33,447 nt of DNA, from NCBI GenBank assembly GCA_019058425.1, contig JAHPYZ010000027.1, positions 1-33,447 of the forward strand. The letters run 5' to 3'. Origin of the DNA: Promethearchaeota archaeon. Lineage in GTDB: Archaea > Asgardarchaeota > Lokiarchaeia > Sigyniarchaeales > SOKP01. A program made the position numbers and the translations under genes. Shown piece by piece: positions 14,757 to 26,709 of this stretch (position 1 is the stretch's first letter; each line of letters opens with the position of its first letter). The notes beneath the pieces were generated by a model, which worked only from the letters and a program-made list of their open reading frames with translations, was not told the origin of the DNA and did not search any database.

Positions 14757-16508
14757 GTGGATTCTTCAAAAGAAATATCCTCAACAGAAATAACGGTTAG
14801 GGTTGCTCATGATCTACAAAGACAAATACTTGAAATAACTTCATTATTAAGAGTCATAAATAATTATTATAAAAAGAAAAAAAATCTTCAAATTCAATTA
14901 AAGACATTAATCTTAGAGAAAATCGAAGATGAATTAAAATTACTCAATAATAAAGATCACCTAAAGACTCTTCCAACTATTTTAAACACCTTAGATAACA
15001 AAAATGTAAAAGAAGATAATTTAGTTAAGTTTCCCGGTAGCGTTTTGCTTTTTGAAGCATGGATGCATCTAGGAACTCATGCCCTCTATCCTCGCATTGC
15101 CCTTCATCTTCAGTTTCCTGGATTCGTTAAAGGTGAAAAGATCAGAAATATCTTTCAATTTATCTTCTCCACCTCACGAGGTTTTGGGTTTCCTATTAAC
15201 TTTGGTCCAGAATTTTATCACTACAGGTTTAAACTTGCTAAATATTTCGATCCATTATTAAAATGGGCATATACAGTATCACATAGAGCTAATCAAGCAA
15301 TTGTCCTTGGAAATAAAAGTTTAAAATCAAATAGGCACCATCCTGGAGAATTCGAATCTGTTATTATATCAGAACATAAAAATAATCTATATAAAGGAAT
15401 TGACACAATTTTACATGGTTACTTTAAAAGTGAGGCTAATTCTTTAGGCAATTTTTATACACTAGATGAAGTTCTACAAAATTCTACTTTTTACTATTCT
15501 ATTGGAGATCATGCCATGAGAATTGAGAATAAAAGTGAGACTATGATCTTGAATCTCCCATTAATAACCAATCAATGTATTATTAATAATTACTACGTTG
15601 ATTTCTATTCTTACGTTAAAGAATTGCTGAATGTGAATGATTTGATCATTCAAAAAATTAATTACTATAAAAACAAAAGAAATGAACTGATAAGTAATTT
15701 AAATAAGAAAAATAAATTAAAATTTAGATATGAAAGATCGAAGCATTCCGCGAAAAAGTTAGCAAGAATGTCTCAAAAACTTTCAAAGAAATATCCAATA
15801 ATAGATAAATATGATCATTATAAGACATTATTGGCAAAAATTAGAGATTTATTATTTACTACCCCTATTTATATGCACTCATTTATTAGTTCCAAGGAAA
15901 GTAAGAAATCTTTACAACTACTAAATATAGATTTAAAAATTTTCAATCAGAATTCACAAAAGTTAGTGAGTTCAGTATTATTATCATTTATTAATTATTA
16001 TGAAAAGAAGCATGAATTCAATTTTGATGAACAAGAAATCTTGTATAAATTAAAGGAATTACAAGATAAAATGACAAAAATGTGGTCATTATTTAAAGAA
16101 AGACATTACAAATTTGCGCTAGAAAGAATAAAAGAATTGGCATTTCTTTCCATTGATGAAACACATTTTAGAACAAAAATTAATGTTCTTTTAGATACAC
16201 TTCTTCCAATTATAGCAATATATGAATTTTTTAACAAACCATTATTCGAATCAGTTTATCCGGAGTCTGTGCCTCAAACTAAAAGACCTTGGGCCTACCT
16301 TGCTAGCTTTTTGGCTTCAAAATATAATCCCTTAGGTACAAAATTAATGAAATTATTTAACAGATTAGCATTTCAAAATTGGAGTTATCTAATATTAAAA
16401 AAAGGATTAAATCGTAAGGAACTATTTAATTATCTCTTAAGATTGCCAATATGGAAGCATATACCTAGAAATGTGAAACAAAAAATAATAATCAATAATA
16501 GTAAATAA
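14757..16508 (+). CDS. Large protein of unknown function
   Basis: A 583-residue protein starting at GTG 14757; I recognise no family. It is helix-rich with many aromatic residues. Residues 1-75 form a charged helix region (QRQILEITSLLRVINNYYKK). Residues 90-185 hold the most structured-looking stretch, with GTHALYPRIALHLQFPGFVK and SRGFGFPINFGPEFYHYRFK. A basic helical segment lies at about 315-340 (ERSKHSAKKLARMSQKLSKK). The C-terminal 120 residues include KRPWAYLASFLASKYNPLG and RKELFNYLLRLPIWKHIPRN. No signal peptide or convincing transmembrane helix. It stands alone, 13 bp convergent with the Elf1-like gene, and precedes the unknown eight-gene operon on the same strand. Confidence 0.75.
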   Translation: MDSSKEISSTEITVRVAHDLQRQILEITSLLRVINNYYKKKKNLQIQLKTLILEKIEDELKLLNNKDHLKTLPTILNTLDNKNVKEDNLVKFPGSVLLFEAWMHLGTHALYPRIALHLQFPGFVKGEKIRNIFQFIFSTSRGFGFPINFGPEFYHYRFKLAKYFDPLLKWAYTVSHRANQAIVLGNKSLKSNRHHPGEFESVIISEHKNNLYKGIDTILHGYFKSEANSLGNFYTLDEVLQNSTFYYSIGDHAMRIENKSETMILNLPLITNQCIINNYYVDFYSYVKELLNVNDLIIQKINYYKNKRNELISNLNKKNKLKFRYERSKHSAKKLARMSQKLSKKYPIIDKYDHYKTLLAKIRDLLFTTPIYMHSFISSKESKKSLQLLNIDLKIFNQNSQKLVSSVLLSFINYYEKKHEFNFDEQEILYKLKELQDKMTKMWSLFKERHYKFALERIKELAFLSIDETHFRTKINVLLDTLLPIIAIYEFFNKPLFESVYPESVPQTKRPWAYLASFLASKYNPLGTKLMKLFNRLAFQNWSYLILKKGLNRKELFNYLLRLPIWKHIPRNVKQKIIINNSK

Positions 16509-16521
16509 TACTACAAGATTT

Positions 16522-17131
16522 CTAAAACTCTAAAAAACCGGGATCATCAAAAATATCTTCTATTTTTCTTTCTTTCTTTATTTTAGTCTCACTTTCAGTA
16601 AATAAAGATTCTTCATCAGTTCGAACTCCTCGGTCTAATTCCTCAGTATCAAGTTTCAATAAAGCATCTTTTTCAAGTCGTTTAAATTCCTCTCCTTTTG
16701 TTTTCCAATCAGTAACTTCATCCAGATTAACATCTTCTTCCTCTAGTAATATTGCAGCTTTTGTTTTACAGAGATCTGATAAAATAGAGTAGGCTAATGC
16801 GAGTTCCCCCCATTCATGGTCTTCCTTTAATTTTTTTATTCTTCTTTCTAACCTTTGTAGTTCTTGATCGGCATAAAAGATATCAATAAAATCTCCAAAA
16901 GCATCAACAGGTTCTGAAATTGAATTTACTAATACTTCTTTTGTTAAATCACAATTTCCACATTTTACAGTGGCAAAAGCACCTTTCTTTTTTATATCTG
17001 TCACCTTAACACTTTTTTCACCACATTCGAGGAAAGATCGGAATCCGATCTACTCATTCTGGGCAGGTGAAAATTTTAGGTACTCTTTTAACCCTTTTTG
17101 GTGATACTTGCTTACGTTTTCTTCTTCCCAT
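16522..17131 (-). CDS. Elf1-type zinc-ribbon protein, reading frame interrupted by 31 bp
   Basis: From ATG 17131 the frame encodes MGRRKRK and a basic N-terminus through KIFTCPE, then hits TGA. The rest, from GKS-like sequence VKVTDIKKKGAFATVKCGNC onward, lies in another frame. Removing 31 bp between 17024 and 17059 restores one 192-residue frame with a perfect four-Cys ribbon: Cys23, Cys26, Cys47, Cys50. The basic MGRRKRK start and the ribbon followed by SISEPVDAFGDFIDIFY match Elf1, a chromatin-associated RNA polymerase elongation factor known in eukaryotes and some archaea. Residues beyond 80 are an acidic coiled-coil tail. If the 31 bp is real and not spliced, only a ribbon-less product from GTG 17004 could be made. 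Explanations are given in the findings. Confidence 0.75.
17015..17073 (-). other. 31-bp insertion with hairpin inside the Elf1-like gene
   Basis: The insertion is bounded by a 5-bp direct repeat CATTC (17024-17028 and 17055-17059, plus-strand reading), offset by exactly 31 bp. It contains a perfect 8-bp inverted repeat with one central base, AGATCGGAATCCGATCT (17035-17051). The flanking coding sequence also pairs: TTTTCACC (17015-17022) with GGTGAAAA (17066-17073), so the RNA can fold into an outer exon stem, an internal loop of 12 by 14 nt holding both repeats, and an inner hairpin. This could be a spliced mini-intron, a small insertion with target duplication, or an assembly artefact. Confidence 0.7.
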
Positions 17132-17254: not shown

Positions 17255-18430
17255 ATGATTAATTTATTTAATTACTCTTTTTCACTGAAATGTTATAGCA
17301 ATTTATATAATAGTGAGTGGATTTTAGGTATGGAACATAAAAATTTAACATTGGAAGATGATAAAAACCTCATTGATAACATTCTTAATAATGTTGACAT
17401 GAGATATATAGTTTTATTCCTCTATGTCATTAGAAATGATTTATTTAAAGATTTAAATGAGAATATCCTTATCGAATCCTTTGAAAGGGTATTGGTATTA
17501 GATGATATATATAAAAATAACATTGTAAATTTATGGGATGAGGAATTCATTGAAATATATATCGATTTAGGTTTGATGAAAAATATTCGAAGTTTGAGAG
17601 AATTCCAACAGAAGGATAATGATTTTATTATTAAATTGGGTGAGGAAACAATAACTATTGAAAACAATATCATATCTGTTCCGGATGATACACTTTTCTT
17701 AATTATAAATAAGAAATTTAAATCTTTATCTAGAAGGAATTTCAACTTAGCTCTTACAAGGTTAAAAGGTGTACGATGTGAGAAAAGTAGCGTAATCCAT
17801 TCATTAATCATTGGGATTGGCGAACATGATTACACAATACCAGATGATTTTTATTATATTTTAGATCAATATGGGAATATTTATCAAGCAATTAAAATTG
17901 AAATAACAATTGAAACTTTTTACCAAAGGTTTAATGAAATTAAAGATAAAATTAACAAATATATTAAGATTATTGAACCAGCACTAAACACGAAGTTAGT
18001 AATGAAAAAAATAAATAAAGCAATAGAAGAAAATAAAGAAATCATACAATACCTTAAAGATGAAAAAACAGAACTCTCAGAAAAGTTCAATTTCGAAAAA
18101 ATTGATAAAGATCATCACATTTTTAAACAATGGAATTCACAACTGATTTCGCTATTAAAAATCAGATATCAAATTGATCAAATAGATGACAAATTGATAG
18201 AATTAAAGAATTATTATTCTGGTAAAAACAAGAAATATAAGTATTTAGAGTTTATTGAAAAAGTATCTTTTAATGAAGATGGATTAGTTAATAATATTCA
18301 GAATTCATTGATTGAATTTCGTAAAAAGCTGGTAGAAATTAATGATCAAGTCGAAGAAACATCAGAGAAAGATCTAAAATTATTAAATTTAGATTTTGAA
18401 AGATTAGTAATAATGAGTAGTGATAATTAG
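17255..18430 (+). CDS. Unknown operon protein 1, C-terminal coiled coil
   Basis: A 391-residue protein with no recognised family; first gene of an eight-gene run. Residues 30-215 are mixed alpha/beta (ESFERVLVLDDIYKNNIVNL, IIKLGEETITIENNIISVPD, then a helical FNLALTRLKGVRCEKSS). Residues 217-385 are strongly predicted helical and charged, including IKDKINKYIKIIEPALN and QIDQIDDKLIELKNYY, consistent with coiled-coil arms and therefore with oligomerisation or binding of the other coiled-coil subunits. Two starts are possible: ATG 17255 (TTAGGA upstream) or ATG 17330, which would remove 25 residues. The next gene starts 3 bp after its stop. Confidence 0.75.
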   Translation: MINLFNYSFSLKCYSNLYNSEWILGMEHKNLTLEDDKNLIDNILNNVDMRYIVLFLYVIRNDLFKDLNENILIESFERVLVLDDIYKNNIVNLWDEEFIEIYIDLGLMKNIRSLREFQQKDNDFIIKLGEETITIENNIISVPDDTLFLIINKKFKSLSRRNFNLALTRLKGVRCEKSSVIHSLIIGIGEHDYTIPDDFYYILDQYGNIYQAIKIEITIETFYQRFNEIKDKINKYIKIIEPALNTKLVMKKINKAIEENKEIIQYLKDEKTELSEKFNFEKIDKDHHIFKQWNSQLISLLKIRYQIDQIDDKLIELKNYYSGKNKKYKYLEFIEKVSFNEDGLVNNIQNSLIEFRKKLVEINDQVEETSEKDLKLLNLDFERLVIMSSDN

Positions 18431-18432
18431 AA

Positions 18433-19398
18433 GTGAAATGTCCTGCGTGTAATATTGAAATGGAGTCCTTAGTAGAGGGAATTTTCCAATGTCCACAATG
18501 CAAAAAGATCGTCAAACAAAAAGAAAAAGAATCACTAGAAAAGGAAAAGGGAAAGATTGATGAGGGTGAGTTTCAAGAAGGTAATTATTTTCACAAAAAT
18601 GCGAGTCTGAATAAACAATATGAAATCTGTGAAAAAGGTATCACAATTCATAAAACTGAAAATCGGTTATTTGCAGCATTAATATGTCACAGTGCTTATC
18701 TAAAAGATGAAAAATATGTGAGATTATCTTGGTGGAAAAATTATCAACATGCAGGTATGTTCAAAATTTACGATAAACATGTTCTACATAATTCAATTAT
18801 TGCTTTGGAAAAAGTAGATTCATCTTTTGATGACATCTGGAATTGGAGTGGAAAATATGGTAAACAATCCTCCAAAACTAAAGAAGAATTAGAAAGAGAA
18901 AAGAATTTAGACATTATTAAATATAGGATTCTTGAAAATCGGACTTGTCCAAAATGTCAGAAAAAGATGGATAAAATGAAATCGCATTATGAATGTCAAC
19001 ACTGTGGAGAAATTGTTATACTAGAAGGGTATAACCAACCAATTTTTAACATTTCTCCCGAAGATCTCGATTTAAGGTTTCATGCCAATTTGCCAATAAA
19101 CTATTATTTACCTGTTAGCGGAATAACCGTTAAATGGTTGATGGGTGAGTGGAAAGCAGTAGCAGTCATATATGCTAAGGACAATCCTAATAAAAAATGG
19201 TTAAGATTCTATTGGTGGGTACGTGATTTGAGTAATATTTTAAAATATGGACAGAGGGAAATGGGAAATGGTACTCAAATGGGGTGGAAAGCTCAGAGAG
19301 GTTTATCATCACCAAATTTATATGATAAAAAGCAGGTTAAACCTCTAATAAGTGCCCTAAAAAGTATTTCTAATGAATTAAATTGGCATATAGATTAA
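18433..19398 (+). CDS. Unknown operon protein 2, duplicated zinc-ribbon module
   Basis: A 321-residue protein starting at GTG 18433. It appears internally duplicated. Module A has a zinc ribbon (Cys3, Cys6, Cys20, Cys23) and a small domain with YVRLSWWKNY...FKIYDKHVLHNSIIALEKV (about 65-128). Module B has a ribbon (Cys172, Cys175, Cys188, Cys191) and WLRFYWWVRDL...LYDKKQVKPLISALKSI (about 232-313). The strand pattern 'hhRhxWW ... hYD ... hI.AL' in both looks like a small beta-sheet plus helix, loosely reminiscent of PC4-type ssDNA-binding domains, which is speculation. A linker rich in Lys/Glu (24-45) follows the first ribbon. A nucleic-acid-binding role in the complex is plausible. Confidence 0.75.
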   Translation: MKCPACNIEMESLVEGIFQCPQCKKIVKQKEKESLEKEKGKIDEGEFQEGNYFHKNASLNKQYEICEKGITIHKTENRLFAALICHSAYLKDEKYVRLSWWKNYQHAGMFKIYDKHVLHNSIIALEKVDSSFDDIWNWSGKYGKQSSKTKEELEREKNLDIIKYRILENRTCPKCQKKMDKMKSHYECQHCGEIVILEGYNQPIFNISPEDLDLRFHANLPINYYLPVSGITVKWLMGEWKAVAVIYAKDNPNKKWLRFYWWVRDLSNILKYGQREMGNGTQMGWKAQRGLSSPNLYDKKQVKPLISALKSISNELNWHID

Positions 19399-19426
19399 TA
19401 GAGTTCATTTAAAATAGGAGAATAAT

Positions 19427-20566
19427 ATGACAGAAGCTCAAGATACAGTATGGAAAGGATTATTAAATGAGTTTCAAGATGGACTTGAAAAAGCACTAGA
19501 ACAATTACAAAAAAGAGATATTGAGAACATTCCAGGCGCTAAAGAAGCTTTAATTCAGAGAATAAATAATATGAAGTTGCATTTTCCTAAAAATAATGGG
19601 GATCTTTTTATAAAAGCTATAAATGACAAAATTCAAAACACTTTTTTTCCAAATACGAAAATTCTTTCTGAAGCCTTTGAAAAGATATTGAAATCAAGAA
19701 CTCATGAACAAGATTTTATAATTAATGAATTGTTAAACGGATTTGTAACATCTAAAGCAAAAGCTATAGCTTCTGGAACTCAAGGACCAATAATAGATAG
19801 AATGGTTGAGGCGTTTAGTAAGAGAAATGACTTTCACATTGTTGATCATCAGTTTTTTGCGATGTTTGGTGATCCAAACAAACCACGCCATTATGTGAAA
19901 AAACAACTAGAAGAACTGGTAAATATGTTTGGGCTTATATCCAAAGAATTATTTATTGAGAAGGATATAAGAAGAAGTGAAGAAAAAATCTATGTGTTTT
20001 ATACATTTCCAAGTGAAATTATAAAAATTCTTGAAGAAAAATATTTAATCATTGATGAAGAATTAGGAGTAGCTTATGTATCGAATAATTTTGATAGAAA
20101 TGTATTTATATGCATGTTTCTTGCTAACCTTGCGATTAACAGGGATGATATTGAAAAAATTGGAGGATCATATACAATTAATGGAATTTCAGCTATTTTT
20201 GCGCTTATTTTATTACTTAGTTTTATGCCTAAATTAAGTATTGATGAAACAAATCCAATATTAAACGACCCAAATTTTGACCAAAAGAATATGAGTGTTA
20301 TCCCAAAATCTTGGATGATGAAACAAGTTTTAGAACCTTTATTCGAACCTCTCATTAAAATCATAGCATATAGAATAGGAGGAGGATTATGGTTGTCTAA
20401 AATAATAAATTCAGAAATTAATAAAACGATTCATAATCAAATACGATTTCTAATTAAAGACGTTAATAAGTGGATTTTAGGAAATTTATGCCGAGTAGAA
20501 ATACCAATATTCATTGAAATCTCGAATATATTCACTGAAATCTTGGTGGGTTATAAAGAAGAATAA
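19427..20566 (+). CDS. Unknown operon protein 3
   Basis: A 379-residue protein I do not recognise. It starts at ATG 19427 with ATAGGAG 8 bp upstream. The N-terminal 100 residues are helical (WKGLLNEFQDGLEKALEQLQ). The middle (about 150-210) has a winged-helix-like pattern, HYVKKQLEELVNMFGLISKE followed by EEKIYVFYTFPSEIIKILEE. The C-terminal part (220-379) is hydrophobic and helical, including GISAIFALILLLSFMPK, which could be one membrane-associated or buried helix. By size and the winged-helix hint it is one of two candidates (with the 20593 product) for a kleisin-like bridging subunit, but I see no kleisin signature. Confidence 0.72.
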   Translation: MTEAQDTVWKGLLNEFQDGLEKALEQLQKRDIENIPGAKEALIQRINNMKLHFPKNNGDLFIKAINDKIQNTFFPNTKILSEAFEKILKSRTHEQDFIINELLNGFVTSKAKAIASGTQGPIIDRMVEAFSKRNDFHIVDHQFFAMFGDPNKPRHYVKKQLEELVNMFGLISKELFIEKDIRRSEEKIYVFYTFPSEIIKILEEKYLIIDEELGVAYVSNNFDRNVFICMFLANLAINRDDIEKIGGSYTINGISAIFALILLLSFMPKLSIDETNPILNDPNFDQKNMSVIPKSWMMKQVLEPLFEPLIKIIAYRIGGGLWLSKIINSEINKTIHNQIRFLIKDVNKWILGNLCRVEIPIFIEISNIFTEILVGYKEE

Positions 20567-20592
20567 TGTATGTATAAATTAGAGACATTATC

Positions 20593-21894
20593 ATGAGTTA
20601 TAAGAAAAAATCAACGAGAACTGTAAAATCAGGAAGAAAGAGAGAGAAATGGACAGACATTTTACCAAGATACTTAACATTTATCAGTCATATGCGCCCA
20701 ATTCTTAGAGAAACAAGAAGAATTATTATTGATTTGGATGCAGATTTATTAATAGACACAGAAATCTTGGATAAGATACGTCAAGAAGAAGAAAAGAGAA
20801 ATATTCGTAAAGTGAGAGCTTTATCAGAATTCTCAGCTATGTATCGATCAAATGTATATGATATTATTAAAGATTTCATTATCAAATATCGAGAAAAAAT
20901 TCCAATAATTGATATTAAGGATTATATTTTAGATTTTCTCCATGAATCTGTTGACGCTTTAAATGTATTACGTCATATTACAAATCCTGATGAATTAAAC
21001 TTAGAGAATACTTATTTGTATCAGTTAGTAAAATTTATTGAAAGAAAATTATTTCCAAGAGGAGCAAACCTCAAAATTATATATAACAAATTACTCAAGG
21101 AATCTGTAGAATTTTATGAGTGTCAACGTCATTTATTACAAACTCATACATATTATAGAGAAAAATTAGAGAGTTCAGAATATTTTGAAATTCCAGGTAT
21201 TTCTCCAAAAGTATATCAAATTATAAACAATATTACTTCACTTTATAACTTAGATCCCAATTTTGGAGAGTTCCCGGAGAAAGATAATCATGAAATTCCT
21301 ATGATTCTAAAAAATGATGTCTTTCTACCATATATTGATTCGATTGCGAATCCTGAAGAAGAAGCTATGGAAAAAATAGCAGAACGATTAGGATTACGCT
21401 TAATTGATGAAATATTTTTAGCACCACAAGAGGATTTTGTTGATTTATTGTTATATAATAACTTTTTACGAGAAAATAAACAAACAGATGGAACAATCAG
21501 GTATTATCCACAATTTAGTAATGAAACGCTAGTACTATATTATTTAGCTTTTGCTTCTCAAAGGAGGGGATTTTTATCTAAGGAATTAATCAATTGGATA
21601 TCTATGAATTTTTCTTTCTTGATATATATGGGTATCTTAAAATGGAAATTATCTGATGAAAATATATTTTATGCAATCTTTAAAGATTTACAAACAAATG
21701 AAAAAGTACTTCCATATTTGATGAAACTCATATGTTTTCCAAATTATGTAGGATTAGATAAGATGAAAATCAGAGATTCTGTTCAATATCGAAAGGAAAT
21801 TTTTAATTTCATTGGATCCCAGATTGATAATCTAAAAGATTTTATTAATGAAATTGCATTGTATTGTGAAAAATTTGAAAGTAAAATTAAGTAA
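20593..21894 (+). CDS. Unknown operon protein 4
   Basis: A 433-residue protein without recognised family. The N-terminus is very basic (SYKKKSTRTVKSGRKREKW), suggesting nucleic-acid contact or a disordered tail. The body is helical throughout, for example ETRRIIIDLDADLLIDTEIL, DIIKDFIIKYREKIPIIDI and a near-C-terminal FIGSQIDNLKDFINEIALY. No transmembrane segment, no cysteine knuckles, no nucleotide-binding motif. It lies 26 bp after the previous gene and 31 bp before the AAA+ ATPase, each with its own ATG, so it is almost certainly co-expressed with them. Confidence 0.72.
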   Translation: MSYKKKSTRTVKSGRKREKWTDILPRYLTFISHMRPILRETRRIIIDLDADLLIDTEILDKIRQEEEKRNIRKVRALSEFSAMYRSNVYDIIKDFIIKYREKIPIIDIKDYILDFLHESVDALNVLRHITNPDELNLENTYLYQLVKFIERKLFPRGANLKIIYNKLLKESVEFYECQRHLLQTHTYYREKLESSEYFEIPGISPKVYQIINNITSLYNLDPNFGEFPEKDNHEIPMILKNDVFLPYIDSIANPEEEAMEKIAERLGLRLIDEIFLAPQEDFVDLLLYNNFLRENKQTDGTIRYYPQFSNETLVLYYLAFASQRRGFLSKELINWISMNFSFLIYMGILKWKLSDENIFYAIFKDLQTNEKVLPYLMKLICFPNYVGLDKMKIRDSVQYRKEIFNFIGSQIDNLKDFINEIALYCEKFESKIK

Positions 21895-21925
21895 TAAAAA
21901 ACAAATTATGAAGAATTGAGTAATA

Positions 21926-23035
21926 ATGAGCAAACCAAATGCTAAAAATGAAGAAATTACTGTATTTCTAGATGATGTGATAAAAGAACGACTTGGAAAA
22001 TATGGAGCGGTCTATTTTCCCTCAGATATTAAAGAGTCTGTCGAAGATATTTTAGGGAATGAAACGAAAAAAGAAATTTTAAATGATTTTTTTAATGCAT
22101 TAAAAAAATATAACGAATTTACTGAGCATTTAAAAAATACTAAATTAAGCCCAAATTTGACAGTACTTTTATATGGACCTCCCGGTACGGGAAAAACTTC
22201 CTTAACAAGAGGTTTTGCAAAAAAACACAAAATCCCAATTTGTGTTGTTGAGTCTGATAGACTTGTTTCACCATTATTAGGGGATACAATTAAAAATATT
22301 CGAGGTGTGGTTGAACTAGCTGCAGAAATTGCGAAAGAAAGAGGGGCTTTTATATTATTTTTTGACGAGATTGATGCTATAGGATCTGAAAGATCTAACA
22401 TTCATGAAGTAGGAGAAATCAAACGAGCTGTTATTTCTTTCCTACAAGTAATTGATAGAGTAAATTATGAAGGAGTACCTTTAGCGATATTTGGGGCTAC
22501 AAATCATCAACATCAACTAGATTCGGCAATATGGCGCCGTTTCACGTTCCATTTTAAATTTAATTTTCCAGATTATCATCTAAGAAAAAAAATTATTGAA
22601 TCATTCATGGAAAAGTTAAAAAATGCTAAAATTGGAGTTGACGATGCGATTTTTTCGAACATAAATAATGAATATAAAGAAATCTTAGCAGTGTCAAAAG
22701 ATCTAGAAAAAAAATTGGGATACGTTATTTCTGAATTTGATAATAATATTTTTTGGGAAGAATTCTACAAAAGAAATAAATCAAAGGGGCTTCTAGGGTT
22801 AACAATTGGATATTCTGGTTCTGATATCGAAAGGGGTACAAGAGTTGCCTTATTGAAATCAATTAACACAGGAATTTTAACTTATGATATTTTCTATAAT
22901 TCTATAATGTTAGTCGGTGGTACAGCTATCCATGTTGAGAGACAAGACGTGTTAAGTGAATCGAGACAAACAAAAAAGTCTATAAGCAGAAATGGGGAAA
23001 ATAAAACAAAACTAACTGGTCCTCCAGAAATATAA
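21926..23035 (+). CDS. AAA+ ATPase (classic AAA type, single domain)
   Basis: A 369-residue ATPase. Walker A GPPGTGKT (84-91), Walker B LFFDEID (144-150), sensor 1 Asn193 (GATNH), second region of homology LDSAIWRRF with arginine fingers Arg204/Arg205, and a C-terminal small-domain helix YSGSDIERG (296-304) of the SGADI type. These put it in the classic AAA clade with spastin/p97/FtsH-like proteins. The pore-loop 1 position, normally aromatic-hydrophobic-Gly, reads PLLG (116-119), so the conserved aromatic is missing. There is no protease domain or MIT/N-domain; residues 1-70 are a short helical N-region and 320-369 a Ser/Lys-rich tail. It is the only intact ATPase in the operon, and probably its motor. 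Confidence 0.92.
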   Translation: MSKPNAKNEEITVFLDDVIKERLGKYGAVYFPSDIKESVEDILGNETKKEILNDFFNALKKYNEFTEHLKNTKLSPNLTVLLYGPPGTGKTSLTRGFAKKHKIPICVVESDRLVSPLLGDTIKNIRGVVELAAEIAKERGAFILFFDEIDAIGSERSNIHEVGEIKRAVISFLQVIDRVNYEGVPLAIFGATNHQHQLDSAIWRRFTFHFKFNFPDYHLRKKIIESFMEKLKNAKIGVDDAIFSNINNEYKEILAVSKDLEKKLGYVISEFDNNIFWEEFYKRNKSKGLLGLTIGYSGSDIERGTRVALLKSINTGILTYDIFYNSIMLVGGTAIHVERQDVLSESRQTKKSISRNGENKTKLTGPPEI

Positions 23036-23068
23036 TTAAATTTCTTAAGAATATTTGCATTTAAAATT

Positions 23069-24109
23069 ATGAGTAAAAACCAATTATTTGATCTCGAAAG
23101 AATAAAGATATTAACCGTTCCTATTGAAGACCTCCAGGTACAGTTGAATCAATTAACTGAGACCTCTAAAAATGCTACTGGAAGTATTAAAGTTATTGAA
23201 AGTGTATTTGAAGACAAACCTTTACATATTCAACTAAATTCTATCGAAGAACTACTAGAAAATATAACTAGTAAATTAAGTAAAATATCAAGACTTAATC
23301 TAAATAAATTCTTAGAACTGCAAGATCAATTAACAAAAAAATATAAAGAAGGTTTTAAAAATAAACTCAAAAAATTAAACCTGAATCAGGAGTTTACTAA
23401 ATCTATAGGACTTTTTTTAATTGAAGATAAAAAAATAAGTAAAATCATTGATTATGTCTCTTATATTCCTTCAATTGAAATTCCACAATGGTTAGATCTC
23501 TTAGATTCTTTAAAACATAATACACTTTTTCTAAAATCAGTAAAAAATATAAAAACTTATTATCAAGATCTACTAATAGCGAGATTAAACATAGAATTGA
23601 GCAGAATTCCTGATGGTACAGATCCAAAACTAGTAAAAGCTTATGAAGTTTTATTTAAAGAAGACCCTACTTTAACATTCAATAATTTTTTACAAAAAAT
23701 TGAAAGTCAATTAACTCAGCAAGAAATTATTGAAAAAGAGAGTCTTATAAAAGAAGTTAGAGAGAGAGAAGAATTTGAAAAACTAAAAAAGAAACAAGAA
23801 GAACAAAAAGAAACATATGAAGATTATCTGAAACTCTCTGATAGAGAATTTAAGAGAATGAGGCGTAAGAAGCGCAGAGAAAAACTAACTGATATCTCCC
23901 CAGAATCCCATGTTAAAAGGGATCTTGAAATAAGTGATGAGGTTTCTGAAAAAATTGAAAAATTTAAATCGCAACTCGAGAAAAGCTTCGATGAAAAATA
24001 TATGATTCAGAAGGATGAGGATAAAGATCCTCTTGATTTAATAAGACAGAGAAAGAAAAGAAAGGAGGAAGAGTATAAGGAATATAAAGACCACTTTGAA
24101 AATACATGA
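23069..24109 (+). CDS. Unknown operon protein 6, charged coiled coil
   Basis: A 346-residue helical protein, family not recognised. Residues 1-110 contain heptad-like helices (SIEELLENITSKLSKISRLN). A central region (120-215) is more globular. From about 218 to the end it is extremely charged: REEFEKLKKKQEEQKETYED, then FKRMRRKKRREKLTD and RQRKKRKEEEYKEYKDH, typical of a long single helix or disordered RNA/DNA-contacting tail. Its stop overlaps the start of the SMC-like gene by 4 bp (ATGA), so the two products are probably translated in a coupled fashion and may interact directly. Confidence 0.75.
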   Translation: MSKNQLFDLERIKILTVPIEDLQVQLNQLTETSKNATGSIKVIESVFEDKPLHIQLNSIEELLENITSKLSKISRLNLNKFLELQDQLTKKYKEGFKNKLKKLNLNQEFTKSIGLFLIEDKKISKIIDYVSYIPSIEIPQWLDLLDSLKHNTLFLKSVKNIKTYYQDLLIARLNIELSRIPDGTDPKLVKAYEVLFKEDPTLTFNNFLQKIESQLTQQEIIEKESLIKEVREREEFEKLKKKQEEQKETYEDYLKLSDREFKRMRRKKRREKLTDISPESHVKRDLEISDEVSEKIEKFKSQLEKSFDEKYMIQKDEDKDPLDLIRQRKKRKEEEYKEYKDHFENT

Positions 24110-25746
24110 CCAAAATAAAAAGGGTATATACTATTCAAAAGCATAATTATAAAATAGACATCGGTTCAACCGAAGTTCCAATAAGAGATAGGTTCACACT
24201 AATTAACGGAAAAATCAAAAAGACTCTGCTAAATGATTTTAAAAACAATTCATTTCTGGAAATTGCTGAAAATTTTAATATTATTTCTATTGAAAAATTT
24301 ATTGGAATTTTACAGGAAGAATCTCAAGGGTATCATGAACTTTTAAAATCTAAAATACTCCTAGATTTTATTCACGAATATCGCAAAATTATTTCTTCTA
24401 ATATAATGATCTCTTCAAATTATACTGAAATAATTAAAAACTTAATTTTTCTTATTAGATATAATATTCTTTTAAAAAACAGAGAATCATTATCAAAAGA
24501 ATTAGAAATAGCAGAACAACTTAGAAAATCAAGCGATGTTACCGCTAGTACAGATTTATTAAAAAAAATAAATGAATCACTAATCAATAATAAAAACAAA
24601 ATAAAGTTTTTAGAGGAGGATTATTTTCAACGAAAAAACCAAATTGATCAACTTAGAACAACGGTAGATGAAATTAATTTAAAAATTCAAGAATTGACTA
24701 AACAAAAAAAGCAGTGTTTTAGTCAAATCAATAGAATCACTCGAGAAATGTCTGGAAATACTCAAGAAACAAAAAAGGATTTGAATAATAATGTCGAAGA
24801 CGCTGGTGACAAATTAACAAATGCTGAAAAAATAAAAAAATTTCAAAAGAAAGCTAAAAAGATCCAAATCGAAATTAATAAAAGTAAATCAAAAATTAGC
24901 CAAACCCAATTAAAACTTGAAGAAAAGCTCCCCAATTTTGAAAGTTATGAAAAAGATTATCAAACTCTATTAGAGATGATTACCACTGAGGAAAAAAGAA
25001 TAAATGATCTTCAATCTAACCTTAAAAATCAAATAAGAGATGAAGAAAATAAAATCATTCAGGATATTGATTTAACCGATTTTAAAACAATTAGATCCTT
25101 ACAAAGTATTAAAGAAGATTTAGAAGAAGTAGAATCTGAAATGAGTAAGATATTAATTCCAAAAGAATATAGTGATCCCCAGAATCCAAGTGATTTTTCT
25201 TTATTTATTAAAAAACTAAGGGATTTAGATGAAAAGATAAAGACTCATGAATCTGAAATTTTAATTACTGTGAATGGAACAGAAATTCATGAATGTTTCG
25301 AGCAATTTAGAAAATTGGAGAATTCTATTGATGAGATCGAGACTATTGTAAACAAGTTTTTATCAGTAATTAACATTATGTCTCAACTTAAAATTATTGT
25401 TAATGATGACAATCAAAACTTCTTTATAGAAATAGAGTTCATTAGAAATGAGAAGGAAAAAGTCGATTTTGATGGATTAACAACTCCAGAAAAAATTTTT
25501 TTCATTATAGCTTTTTATCTCTCAATTGAAATTCACATCAAAAAAGTTAATATTATTTTCTCAAATGCATCTATTTTAAGTAAGTATAATAAAGCAGGGT
25601 CAATTTTTAGAACAATTAGAAAAATTTTACCAATATTTGAAATGGACGATACATTATTAAGATTTAATTTGGTTTTTATCATTTCAAATTTAGAATTAAA
25701 AAGAGAAATTAAAAATTTAAAAATTAATACAATACAAGAAAGCTGA
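24106..25746 (+). CDS. Short SMC/Rad50-like coiled-coil protein with degenerate ATPase heads
   Basis: A 546-residue protein laid out like a miniature SMC: an N-terminal globular part (1-115), an antiparallel-looking coiled coil (about 125-218 and 238-345) broken by a Gly/Asn-rich turn (MSGNTQETKKDLNNN, 215-229), and a C-terminal globular part (about 385-546). The C-terminal part reproduces the SMC order: signature-like LTTPEK (458-463) followed by a helix FFIIAFYLSIEI, Walker-B-like VNIIFSNAS (481-489), then FNLVFIISNLE (520-530) at the H-loop position. The N-terminal part has a Q-loop-like FIGILQEES (65-73) but no Walker A. The Walker B acids are replaced by Ser/Asn. If homologous, it is a pseudo-ATPase. 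Similarity is by eye and needs profile or structure support; a plain coiled-coil protein is the alternative. Confidence 0.65.
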   Translation: MTKIKRVYTIQKHNYKIDIGSTEVPIRDRFTLINGKIKKTLLNDFKNNSFLEIAENFNIISIEKFIGILQEESQGYHELLKSKILLDFIHEYRKIISSNIMISSNYTEIIKNLIFLIRYNILLKNRESLSKELEIAEQLRKSSDVTASTDLLKKINESLINNKNKIKFLEEDYFQRKNQIDQLRTTVDEINLKIQELTKQKKQCFSQINRITREMSGNTQETKKDLNNNVEDAGDKLTNAEKIKKFQKKAKKIQIEINKSKSKISQTQLKLEEKLPNFESYEKDYQTLLEMITTEEKRINDLQSNLKNQIRDEENKIIQDIDLTDFKTIRSLQSIKEDLEEVESEMSKILIPKEYSDPQNPSDFSLFIKKLRDLDEKIKTHESEILITVNGTEIHECFEQFRKLENSIDEIETIVNKFLSVINIMSQLKIIVNDDNQNFFIEIEFIRNEKEKVDFDGLTTPEKIFFIIAFYLSIEIHIKKVNIIFSNASILSKYNKAGSIFRTIRKILPIFEMDDTLLRFNLVFIISNLELKREIKNLKINTIQES

Positions 25747-25751
25747 TATTA

Positions 25752-26249
25752 ATGTCAATTGAATATAACAACGTAAAAGAAATTGTAAAAAATATTACAA
25801 AATTAATTTTAACAAATCCTCAAAAAATTATTAGGGAGGAAGATCTTAGAAATTTAAGCAAGGATTTTGATTTTGAGCAACTAATGAGTGAAGTATATCT
25901 GAATCTAAGAAATGTGGGTTTTGAGCTTATTAAAACTAAATTCATTGAACAGGAATTTTATATTTTAACATCTGACGGTAAAGATGATAATATAACGCCA
26001 TCACAATATGGAATTTTAGCCTTAATAATTGCTTTAGGTAAAGAAATCGATGAGTATATAAAAATAGATGATTTAAAAGAAATTTTTGCTGAACTATGGG
26101 ATACAGATGTTCAATTTCTTATTAATAATGATTATTTAAGAATGTTTGACGATTTAGGAGTAATTCAAGTTACACCATTAGGGAAGGCGACTATGAAAAA
26201 TATCATCAAGGACTTACAATTAAAAAACTTACTGAATGTATTTGAATAA
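25752..26249 (+). CDS. Tandem winged-helix protein, KITE (Nse3/MAGE-, MukE-, ScpB-) like
   Basis: A 165-residue protein made of two winged-helix-like units. Unit 1 (about 8-75): VKEIVKNITKLILTNPQKII, then REEDLRNL, a long helix, and strands GFELIKTKF / QEFYILTS. Unit 2 (about 83-150): SQYGILALIIALGKEIDEY, DDLKEIF, then FLINNDYLRMFDD and LGVIQVTPLGKATM. The order 'R-ED-L ... LR.vGfeLi ... YiLt ... gIL.liialG..I ... YL' recalls the MAGE homology domain of Nse3, a KITE protein that binds kleisins in Smc5/6; MukE and ScpB share this fold. It starts 5 bp after the SMC-like gene and ends the operon. The KITE reading is inference from layout plus context; a generic transcription regulator is the main alternative. 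Confidence 0.65.
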   Translation: MSIEYNNVKEIVKNITKLILTNPQKIIREEDLRNLSKDFDFEQLMSEVYLNLRNVGFELIKTKFIEQEFYILTSDGKDDNITPSQYGILALIIALGKEIDEYIKIDDLKEIFAELWDTDVQFLINNDYLRMFDDLGVIQVTPLGKATMKNIIKDLQLKNLLNVFE

Positions 26250-26280: not shown

Positions 26281-26709
26281 TTAATCTTCAGGTGGACTTT
26301 CTAAATCCATTTTAAATTGCTCAAAAATCTTTTTTACGCGTTCTGCTGAAGGACCTGTTCCCCTTACCTCATTTTCATCAACAATAATTTTACCGTTTAA
26401 TATAGAAATGATATTTTGATCTTCAATGTATTTAACGTGCCCTTTTGAAAATATAGTTGCGATCCGATCCGCAAGAGCGACCATCGGAAAAGGTTCTTCT
26501 TCTAAACTTACATAATTATAAAATGTACTTCTAATAAACAATTTAGGAAATGATTTATTTTTCTCATTTTTAGCATTTACAAGAATTAAGTTCGAATCTT
26601 CAGAAACTCCTTTTAATTGTCCAACAAAGAATTTATCTTTATCAAGATAAACTTTAACTATCTTATCAATTAATGTACCTAACTCTGTATTATATTGCCT
26701 TATTGACAT
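26281..26709 (-). CDS. Archaeal Sm-like protein with Lsm_C domain (SmAP3-like)
   Basis: A 142-residue RNA-binding protein. Residues 1-70 are an Lsm fold: a start helix IRQYNTELGTLIDKIVKVYL, Sm1 FVGQLKGVSEDSNLILVNA with the usual G-x-L-x-G-x-D-x-N-like signature, and Sm2 around FIRSTFYNYVSLEE. Residues 73-135 (PFPMVALADRIATIF, VKYIEDQNIISILNGKIIVD, NEVRGTGPSAERVKKIFEQF) match the archaeal Lsm_C extension seen in SmAP3-type proteins, which form ring assemblies. It is convergent with the eight-gene operon (31 bp between stops). ATG start at 26709. Confidence 0.9.
   Translation of the reverse strand: MSIRQYNTELGTLIDKIVKVYLDKDKFFVGQLKGVSEDSNLILVNAKNEKNKSFPKLFIRSTFYNYVSLEEEPFPMVALADRIATIFSKGHVKYIEDQNIISILNGKIIVDENEVRGTGPSAERVKKIFEQFKMDLESPPED

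Follow-up and report, generated by a model that had tools for sequence, protein, structure and literature searches.

A contig of the Promethearchaeota archaeon assembly GCA_019058425.1 (JAHPYZ010000027.1, positions 1 to 33,447 of the forward strand; Lokiarchaeia, Sigyniarchaeales) carries an operon of eight open reading frames (ORFs), gA to gH, that combines a AAA+ ATPase with a protein of the SMC superfamily from which the ATP site is missing. The whole stretch of 33,447 nucleotides is here called the window, and its assembly consists of 143 contigs. All eight ORFs lie on the + strand at 17255-26249. The operon begins with gA (17255..18430, 391 aa) and gB (18433..19398, 321 aa), the latter an internal duplication in which a zinc ribbon and the domain behind it occur twice. 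Two strongly conserved paralogues, gC (19427..20566, 379 aa) and gD (20593..21894, 433 aa), precede the single-domain AAA+ ATPase gE (21926..23035, 369 aa). The operon closes with the charged, fast-evolving gF (23069..24109, 346 aa), the reduced SMC-superfamily protein gG (24106..25746, 546 aa) and the probable winged-helix protein gH (25752..26249, 165 aa). According to the coordinates the intergenic gaps from gA to gH are 2, 28, 26, 31, 33, -4 and 5 bp. Both flanking genes are on the - strand: an Elf1-like zinc-ribbon protein on the left (16522..17004, Pfam E 3.3e-8) and an Sm/Lsm protein on the right (26281..26709, Lsm_C 9.7e-11, LSM 1e-5), the latter tail-to-tail with gH. Pfam matches above cut-off are restricted to gE (AAA, 1.9e-25) and gB (Zn_ribbon_6, 25.8 against 25 bits), and the six other operon proteins have none. 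An initial annotation, made from the window alone, had described the eight co-directional genes and both opposite-strand neighbours correctly; six of its seven gap lengths hold and the first, given as 3 bp, is 2 bp. Its statement that only the AAA+ ATPase has an obvious family is nearly right, gB barely passing the zinc-ribbon cut-off.

Genes gA to gH are kept together, in one direction and at one fixed locus, beyond what chance would produce. The complete set is held in 37 of 51 tabulated loci of Lokiarchaea, and every neighbouring pair is co-directional with a gap of at most 400 bp in all loci where both members were detected, 41 to 50 for each pair; gA and gB are adjacent in 47 loci. The 14 incomplete loci comprise three with an inserted island, ten that lie, by position, at a contig end, and L137 (genome G003) with an unrelated ORF in the expected place of gA. 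The table excludes L047, L085, L086 and L087, which represent an intact-SMC version of the operon or fragments, as well as L199 and L200, where an island parts gE from gF by about 8 and 11 kb. The left side of the locus is adjoined in several genomes by a conserved gene for a 583-aa protein (window 14757-16508).

Relatives of gC are present in 62 of the 227 genomes of the phylum, i.e. in 53 of 65 genomes of the window's family (f1), in all eight of the sister family (f2) and, as one weak match, in f19; for gD the count is 39 of 58 relatives. All named genomes in which a gC relative turned up bear the names Candidatus Lokiarchaeota, Lokiarchaeia or Prometheoarchaeum (56 loci), in a scan that reaches close relatives only. 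Among the 12 f1 genomes without a gC match, no Sm gene is found at E <= 1e-15 in six either, which makes it probable that the segment is unassembled in them; in one of these (G147) the contig breaks inside the Elf1-like gene. Of the others, G004 has a 100-N gap beside Sm, in G009 gG and gH adjoin Sm and are followed by a 100-N gap, and G021 and G036 possess gD. No clean empty site was seen among the gC-negative f1 genomes looked at (all but G028 and G139). Given the missing Sm genes, the N gaps and the presence of gD, an interpretation of these genomes as true absences is unsupported.

All eight genes are under purifying selection, with ratios of nonsynonymous to synonymous substitution rates (dN/dS) of 0.04-0.34 in five genome pairs, values that are rough in the most distant pair, where dS reaches 2.2. 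The lowest ratios belong to gC (0.040-0.063) and gD (0.043-0.063), followed by gB (0.059-0.104), gH (0.077-0.121), gE (0.098-0.119) and gA (0.109-0.133). The highest ratios are those of gF (0.200-0.261) and gG (0.235-0.338), and the latter range indicates that gG is under selection and no relic.

Profile comparison and a predicted structure both assign gG to the SMC superfamily. Compared with a profile built on six intact SMC proteins found in relatives, gG reaches hhalign Prob 93.6 and 92.8 (E 2e-7 and 4e-7), and the larger gG set aligns via its C-terminal head. Three Rad50-like proteins from the islands give a Prob of 3.6. With most of the coiled coil removed, the joined heads score 33.3 (Prob 32, E 5e-4), and none of 200 column shuffles (maximum 21.8) reaches this score. 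The C-terminal head half alone yields a Prob of 53. A hidden Markov model (HMM) of the C-terminal head, run against 14 SMC and Rad50-like sequences, places two SMC proteins of family f21 first (18 bits, 1.5e-6), followed by f21 L102 and then f19 L094; on these scores this SMC group is the nearest known to gG.

The AlphaFold2 model of gG (predicted local distance difference test score, pLDDT, 83.6; predicted template modelling score, pTM, 0.58) bears strands at both ends and contains two long helices, with ABC-type head halves at the N and C ends and the coiled coil between them. No folded hinge is present in the model, in which a low-confidence loop (217-235) lies between the two long helices. 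At E <= 0.001 Foldseek finds 61 PDB matches, with Rad50, Lamassu LmuACB, Smc5/6 and JetABC entries at the top; among the 50 matches listed, 49 are titled SMC, cohesin, condensin, Rad50, Jet, Muk or Lamassu and the remaining one is a YYDD-YYDB model. Template modelling scores by query length are low in the rows listed (0.13-0.23). The P-loop pattern is found in none of 43 gG sequences, as opposed to six of six intact SMC proteins. The aligned signature of gG reads [LS][ST]TPEK or near, and Walker B lacks the acidic pair (10 of 11 rows shown); loose patterns searched anywhere in gG recover the signature in 4/43 and Walker B (last 130 aa) in 10/43. Walker A, signature and Walker B of the SMC class are accordingly not found in gG, and an intact ATPase of the Smc5/6 class occurs only in the relatives L047 and L085. 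The mini-SMC with degenerate heads that the initial annotation had recognised here is borne out. Genome G000 contains further candidate SMC-superfamily ORFs on contigs C60, C59 and C129 (1162, 1498 and 708 aa; E 1.8e-6, 4.8e-4 and 0.005).

By its sequence gE is a Cdc48-class AAA+ ATPase with intact catalytic motifs, and its nearest solved relatives are VCP/Cdc48 proteins. The residues that we take to be Walker A, Walker B, sensor 1 and the Arg finger are invariant in 13 of 13 aligned sequences, in agreement with the earlier suggestion of a separate AAA+ beside SMC-like heads that seem dead. gE also matches PADLOC IetA profiles (4.6e-57), as do four AAA ORFs at other places in its genome (6e-33 to 4e-82), one of them better than gE. 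The C-terminal sequence P-x-[ED]-I is carried by seven of the eight window-type AAA proteins in alignment A16 and by none of its five intact-SMC or island-bearing ones.

gH is probably a winged-helix protein. Against A9, a profile of four KITE-like sequences, it scores 31.7 in hhalign with none of 100 shuffles reaching this value (maximum 19.1); the match covers 71 columns at Prob 32, the Prob being 43 with a smaller set and the span 71-73 columns over all comparisons. A9 is called KITE-like from its position in SMC operons and from weak Pfam matches of one member (SMC_Nse1 0.0022, ScpB 0.054). Neither the gH profile nor profile A10 has a useful match in PDB. The KITE likeness first proposed for gH is partly supported by this profile match, and the tandem winged-helix fold stays putative. 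gF, which had been included in the same SMC-KITE module, matches neither of the kleisin-like sets A6 and A10, and its candidacy as a kleisin was dropped for lack of any detectable likeness to the kleisin-like proteins tested. The proposal was to fall if related genomes showed no synteny and predicted structures neither an ABC-like head nor tandem winged helices; the gene order is kept, and the gG model has the ABC-like head.

The duplication inside gB is real, as the initial annotation had noticed: its N and C halves align at hhalign Prob 98.2 (E 5.5e-14), a score reached in 0 of 40 column shuffles. The paralogy of gC and gD is equally beyond shuffling (0/40), and the gD profile also matches gC in several genomes. 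The gC model (pLDDT 80.0, pTM 0.80) is mainly helical and matches nothing in PDB or BFVD at E <= 0.001, so that an assignment of gC by fold was dropped. In gC of G013 and G160 (L088:11564-12796 and L089:7684-8967) the profile match is split in two, and an insertion lies near residue 215. A relationship of gA to gC or gD was rejected by profile comparison.

Two relatives possess the operon with an intact SMC gene. In L047 (G042) and L085 (G050), homologues of gA, gC, gD and the AAA+ ATPase are followed by an SMC protein of 1057 or 1071 aa with a P-loop, a protein of ~323 aa read as winged-helix (WH1) and a protein of ~322 aa (X2). X2 is cut by the contig end in L085, and L047 additionally contains a 191-aa WH3, giving the layout A-C-D-AAA-SMC-WH1-X2-WH3. 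The best PDB matches of the intact SMC are Smc5 (5e-9) and Smc6, and the six-member SMC profile finds Smc6 (1e-43), archaeal Smc heads (2e-33) and Smc5 (3e-27). The best Pfam match of X2 is Nse4_C (0.0014), and X2 of G042 is the best Nse4_C match in the 227 genomes (3.3e-4, 22.9 bits). X2 and A10 do not match significantly, nor do WH3 and A9, and WH1 against A9 reaches a Prob of 2.4.

The G042 cluster lies on the opposite strand. On one side it has an intact gB, which shares 71% identity with that of the sister genome, and on the other a broken piece of gH (tblastn 1.3e-11), beyond which follow a gene read as galactokinase and then Sm. From this position the two operon versions appear to have been exchanged at one locus. 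In family f19, genome G111 has its gC-like gene on a different contig from its gD-like gene, AAA and SMC, which share one, and G110 has the AAA and an SMC. The gC-like gene of G111 (L086) is located ~570 bases downstream of an E1-E2 fusion gene and a JAB gene (L086:1025-5041; PADLOC E 5e-28 and 1e-23, respectively). Viral contigs yielded 600 and 30 pattern matches, none of them related to the intact SMC or to gC. Smc5/6-related SMC operons of another composition occur in f19 and f21 (L100:178-5430, L102:5920-10746, L103:8981-13807, L104:5537-10462). Next to the SMC they encode a KITE-like protein, one of ~300 aa and a small one with weak, sub-cut-off RING or C1-type zinc matches; no AAA homologue was found in the stretches fetched for these four loci.

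Three genomes (G005, G013 and G160) contain extra genes after gE. All three islands include a protein read as Rad50-like (656-672 aa) and two small related proteins. The G160 island also possesses DUF5591, TGT-family, HerA-like (other strand), DpdB-like and PAPS-reductase genes, that of G005 PAPS-reductase, HhH-GPD/nicking-enzyme-like and C5-methylase genes, and that of G013 look-alikes of the DUF5591 and TGT genes; in G013 the AAA reading frame is split in two ORFs. The islands of G005 and G160 hence contain genes for DNA modification or of other kinds typical of defence. The island of L199 holds a second Elf1-like gene. A replacement of gF-gG-gH by the Rad50-like islands was rejected, as these three genes are located past the island, beside Sm, in G005 and G160. 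Three operon genes of G013 are closer to those of G160, a member of another genus (gA 71%, gC 77%, AAA 80% identity, the last for the 188-aa ORF only), than to those of the congeneric G000 (47%, 69% and, for the same 188-aa ORF, 73%). The genes gm1, Elf1 and Sm follow the genus, with 50, 75 and 82% between G013 and G160 versus 65, 92 and 88% between G013 and G000.

The explanation we put first, though at slightly less than even probability, is that the eight genes specify a reduced, Smc5/6-like complex for DNA surveillance, coupled to a Cdc48-class AAA+ remodeller of its own and likely restricting incoming DNA. gF, gG and gH would constitute a DNA-bound scaffold derived from a Smc5/6-like complex, with gB and the winged helices contacting DNA. 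The AAA+ ring, held by gA, gC and gD, would power this SMC module by performing the ATP-driven step that is done elsewhere by the SMC heads: loading, unloading, or the unfolding of a subunit or of a target-bound protein. Its most probable job would be to sense and restrict incoming plasmid or viral DNA, and some lineages would add DNA-modification genes in the gE-gF gap. A role in immunity rather than in housekeeping is suggested by the exchange at the locus, the sharing of alleles, the fast evolution of gF and gG and the neighbouring DNA-modification or ubiquitin-like-conjugation genes. Of the three roles initially offered, a DNA-organising, defence or division complex, the context favours defence and nothing found points to division.

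Several observations weigh against a surveillance complex of Smc5/6 descent. The N-terminal head half of gG alone gives no significant match to the SMC profile, its alignment covering 8 columns immediately before the P-loop position, and the C-terminal head HMM finds nothing significant in the operon's own intact SMC (L047, L085) or in others of the 14 sequences. Descent of gG from the operon's own intact SMC is for this reason not established, even if the f21 proteins mark its nearest known SMC group. In the PDB search with the SMC profile, archaeal Smc heads come after Smc6 and ahead of Smc5, and X2 stays below the 26-bit Pfam cut-off of Nse4_C, as does a match in one of 14 control genomes (Thermotoga). 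gH does not match WH3 significantly (17 of 100 shuffles reach the score), and against WH1 it is barely above the shuffles (28.5 versus a maximum of 27.0, over 30 columns). As regards immunity, the eight proteins contain no nuclease family above the Pfam cut-off, so that none of them is recognised as a restriction effector, and the IetA match of gE was rejected as a functional clue, being generic to Cdc48-like AAA proteins. Islands occur in 3 of 51 tabulated loci, and cross-genus sharing is limited to G013 and G160, with gB and gD neutral and G005 close to neither. The near-fixed operon, with dN/dS of gC and gD near 0.05, resembles housekeeping rather than patchy defence.

Near-fixation and strong constraint favour a lineage-specific, essential or near-essential Smc5/6-like machine of genome maintenance (repair, junction handling or loading) with the defence genes as passengers, a rival we consider possible and take seriously. 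The frequency of gC in f1 and f2, where many misses are explained by gaps, missing Sm or the presence of gD, and the strong purifying selection on gC and gD speak for it. It does not account well for the substitution of an intact-SMC cluster at the locus in G042, the closeness of gA, gC and AAA between G013 and G160, the dN/dS of 0.20-0.34 in gF and gG, or the DNA-modification cargo between gE and gF. Because allele sharing is confined to one genome pair and the gG HMM misses L047 and L085, we lowered the surveillance reading to its present standing, just short of even, and raised genome maintenance to that of a serious if doubtful competitor. The boldest form of the surveillance reading is unlikely: an Smc5/6-like immune complex whose SMC ATPase has been lost, with a Cdc48-class AAA+ ring as its motor instead, and whose intact form can still swap into the locus.

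Clearly improbable is a function of the AAA+ ATPase as a disassembly factor that strips proteins off a static, DNA- or membrane-bound gF-gG-gH assembly, without loop-extruding or immune activity. The closeness of gE to VCP/Cdc48-type proteins agrees with such a function, and the P-x-[ED]-I ending of the window-type AAA proteins suggests a partner-specific dock; it has no known substrate, however, and leaves the conserved gA-gD proteins and the Smc5/6-like relatives unexplained. Very improbable is a reading in which coiled coils alone make gG resemble an SMC and the operon is unrelated to SMC complexes: the gG profile does find mainly coiled coils among its 27 PDB matches at E <= 1 (best 0.004), but the head comparison omits most of the coiled coil and exceeds all shuffles, and the gG model matches SMC and Rad50 structures.

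SMC complexes are powered by an ABC ATPase of their own. A conserved complex retaining the SMC fold without this ATPase, and adding a separate AAA+, would split the role of SMC scaffold from that of motor. No literature on this operon was found under Asgard, SMC, kleisin, KITE and defence topics, in a search that covers few subscription journals or preprints. An archaeal SMC related to SMC5/6 is already described in PMC9389158. SMC-based immunity (Wadjet, Lamassu, Smc5/6) is reviewed in PMC10586767, where LmuB is termed putatively defective in ATP hydrolysis and the term AAA is absent.

Among known systems, IetAS shares with the operon the match of gE to IetA, which is generic to Cdc48-like AAA proteins, and differs by its subtilase IetS, to which none of the eight proteins shows a match. 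Wadjet (JetABCD) combines an SMC with a KITE partner, which the KITE-like profile match of gH would parallel, and the gG model matches JetABC entries; here, however, no JetD nuclease match is present in the eight proteins, the SMC head of gG is dead and an extra AAA+ is added. Lamassu (LmuABC) has a similar SMC/Rad50-like core, and LmuACB entries are matched by the gG model, but the eight proteins contain no LmuA- or LmuC-like match and gG resembles LmuB weakly (0.0022). The complex of Smc5/6 with Nse1, Nse3 and Nse4 is approached by the intact-SMC relatives, which match Smc5 and Smc6 first and carry a weakly Nse4_C-like subunit. These Asgard relatives, with their Smc5/6-like SMC and Nse-like partners, bear on the origin of eukaryotic Smc5/6 and of its antiviral role; if the immune complex with its swapping intact form were real, the antiviral activity could, by extension, trace to an archaeal anti-plasmid system. 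The operon of the window differs from Smc5/6 in that no kleisin was identified in it (gF against A6 and A10) and in that gG has neither an ATP site nor, in the model, a hinge, while a separate AAA+ ATPase and further, unassigned proteins are added.

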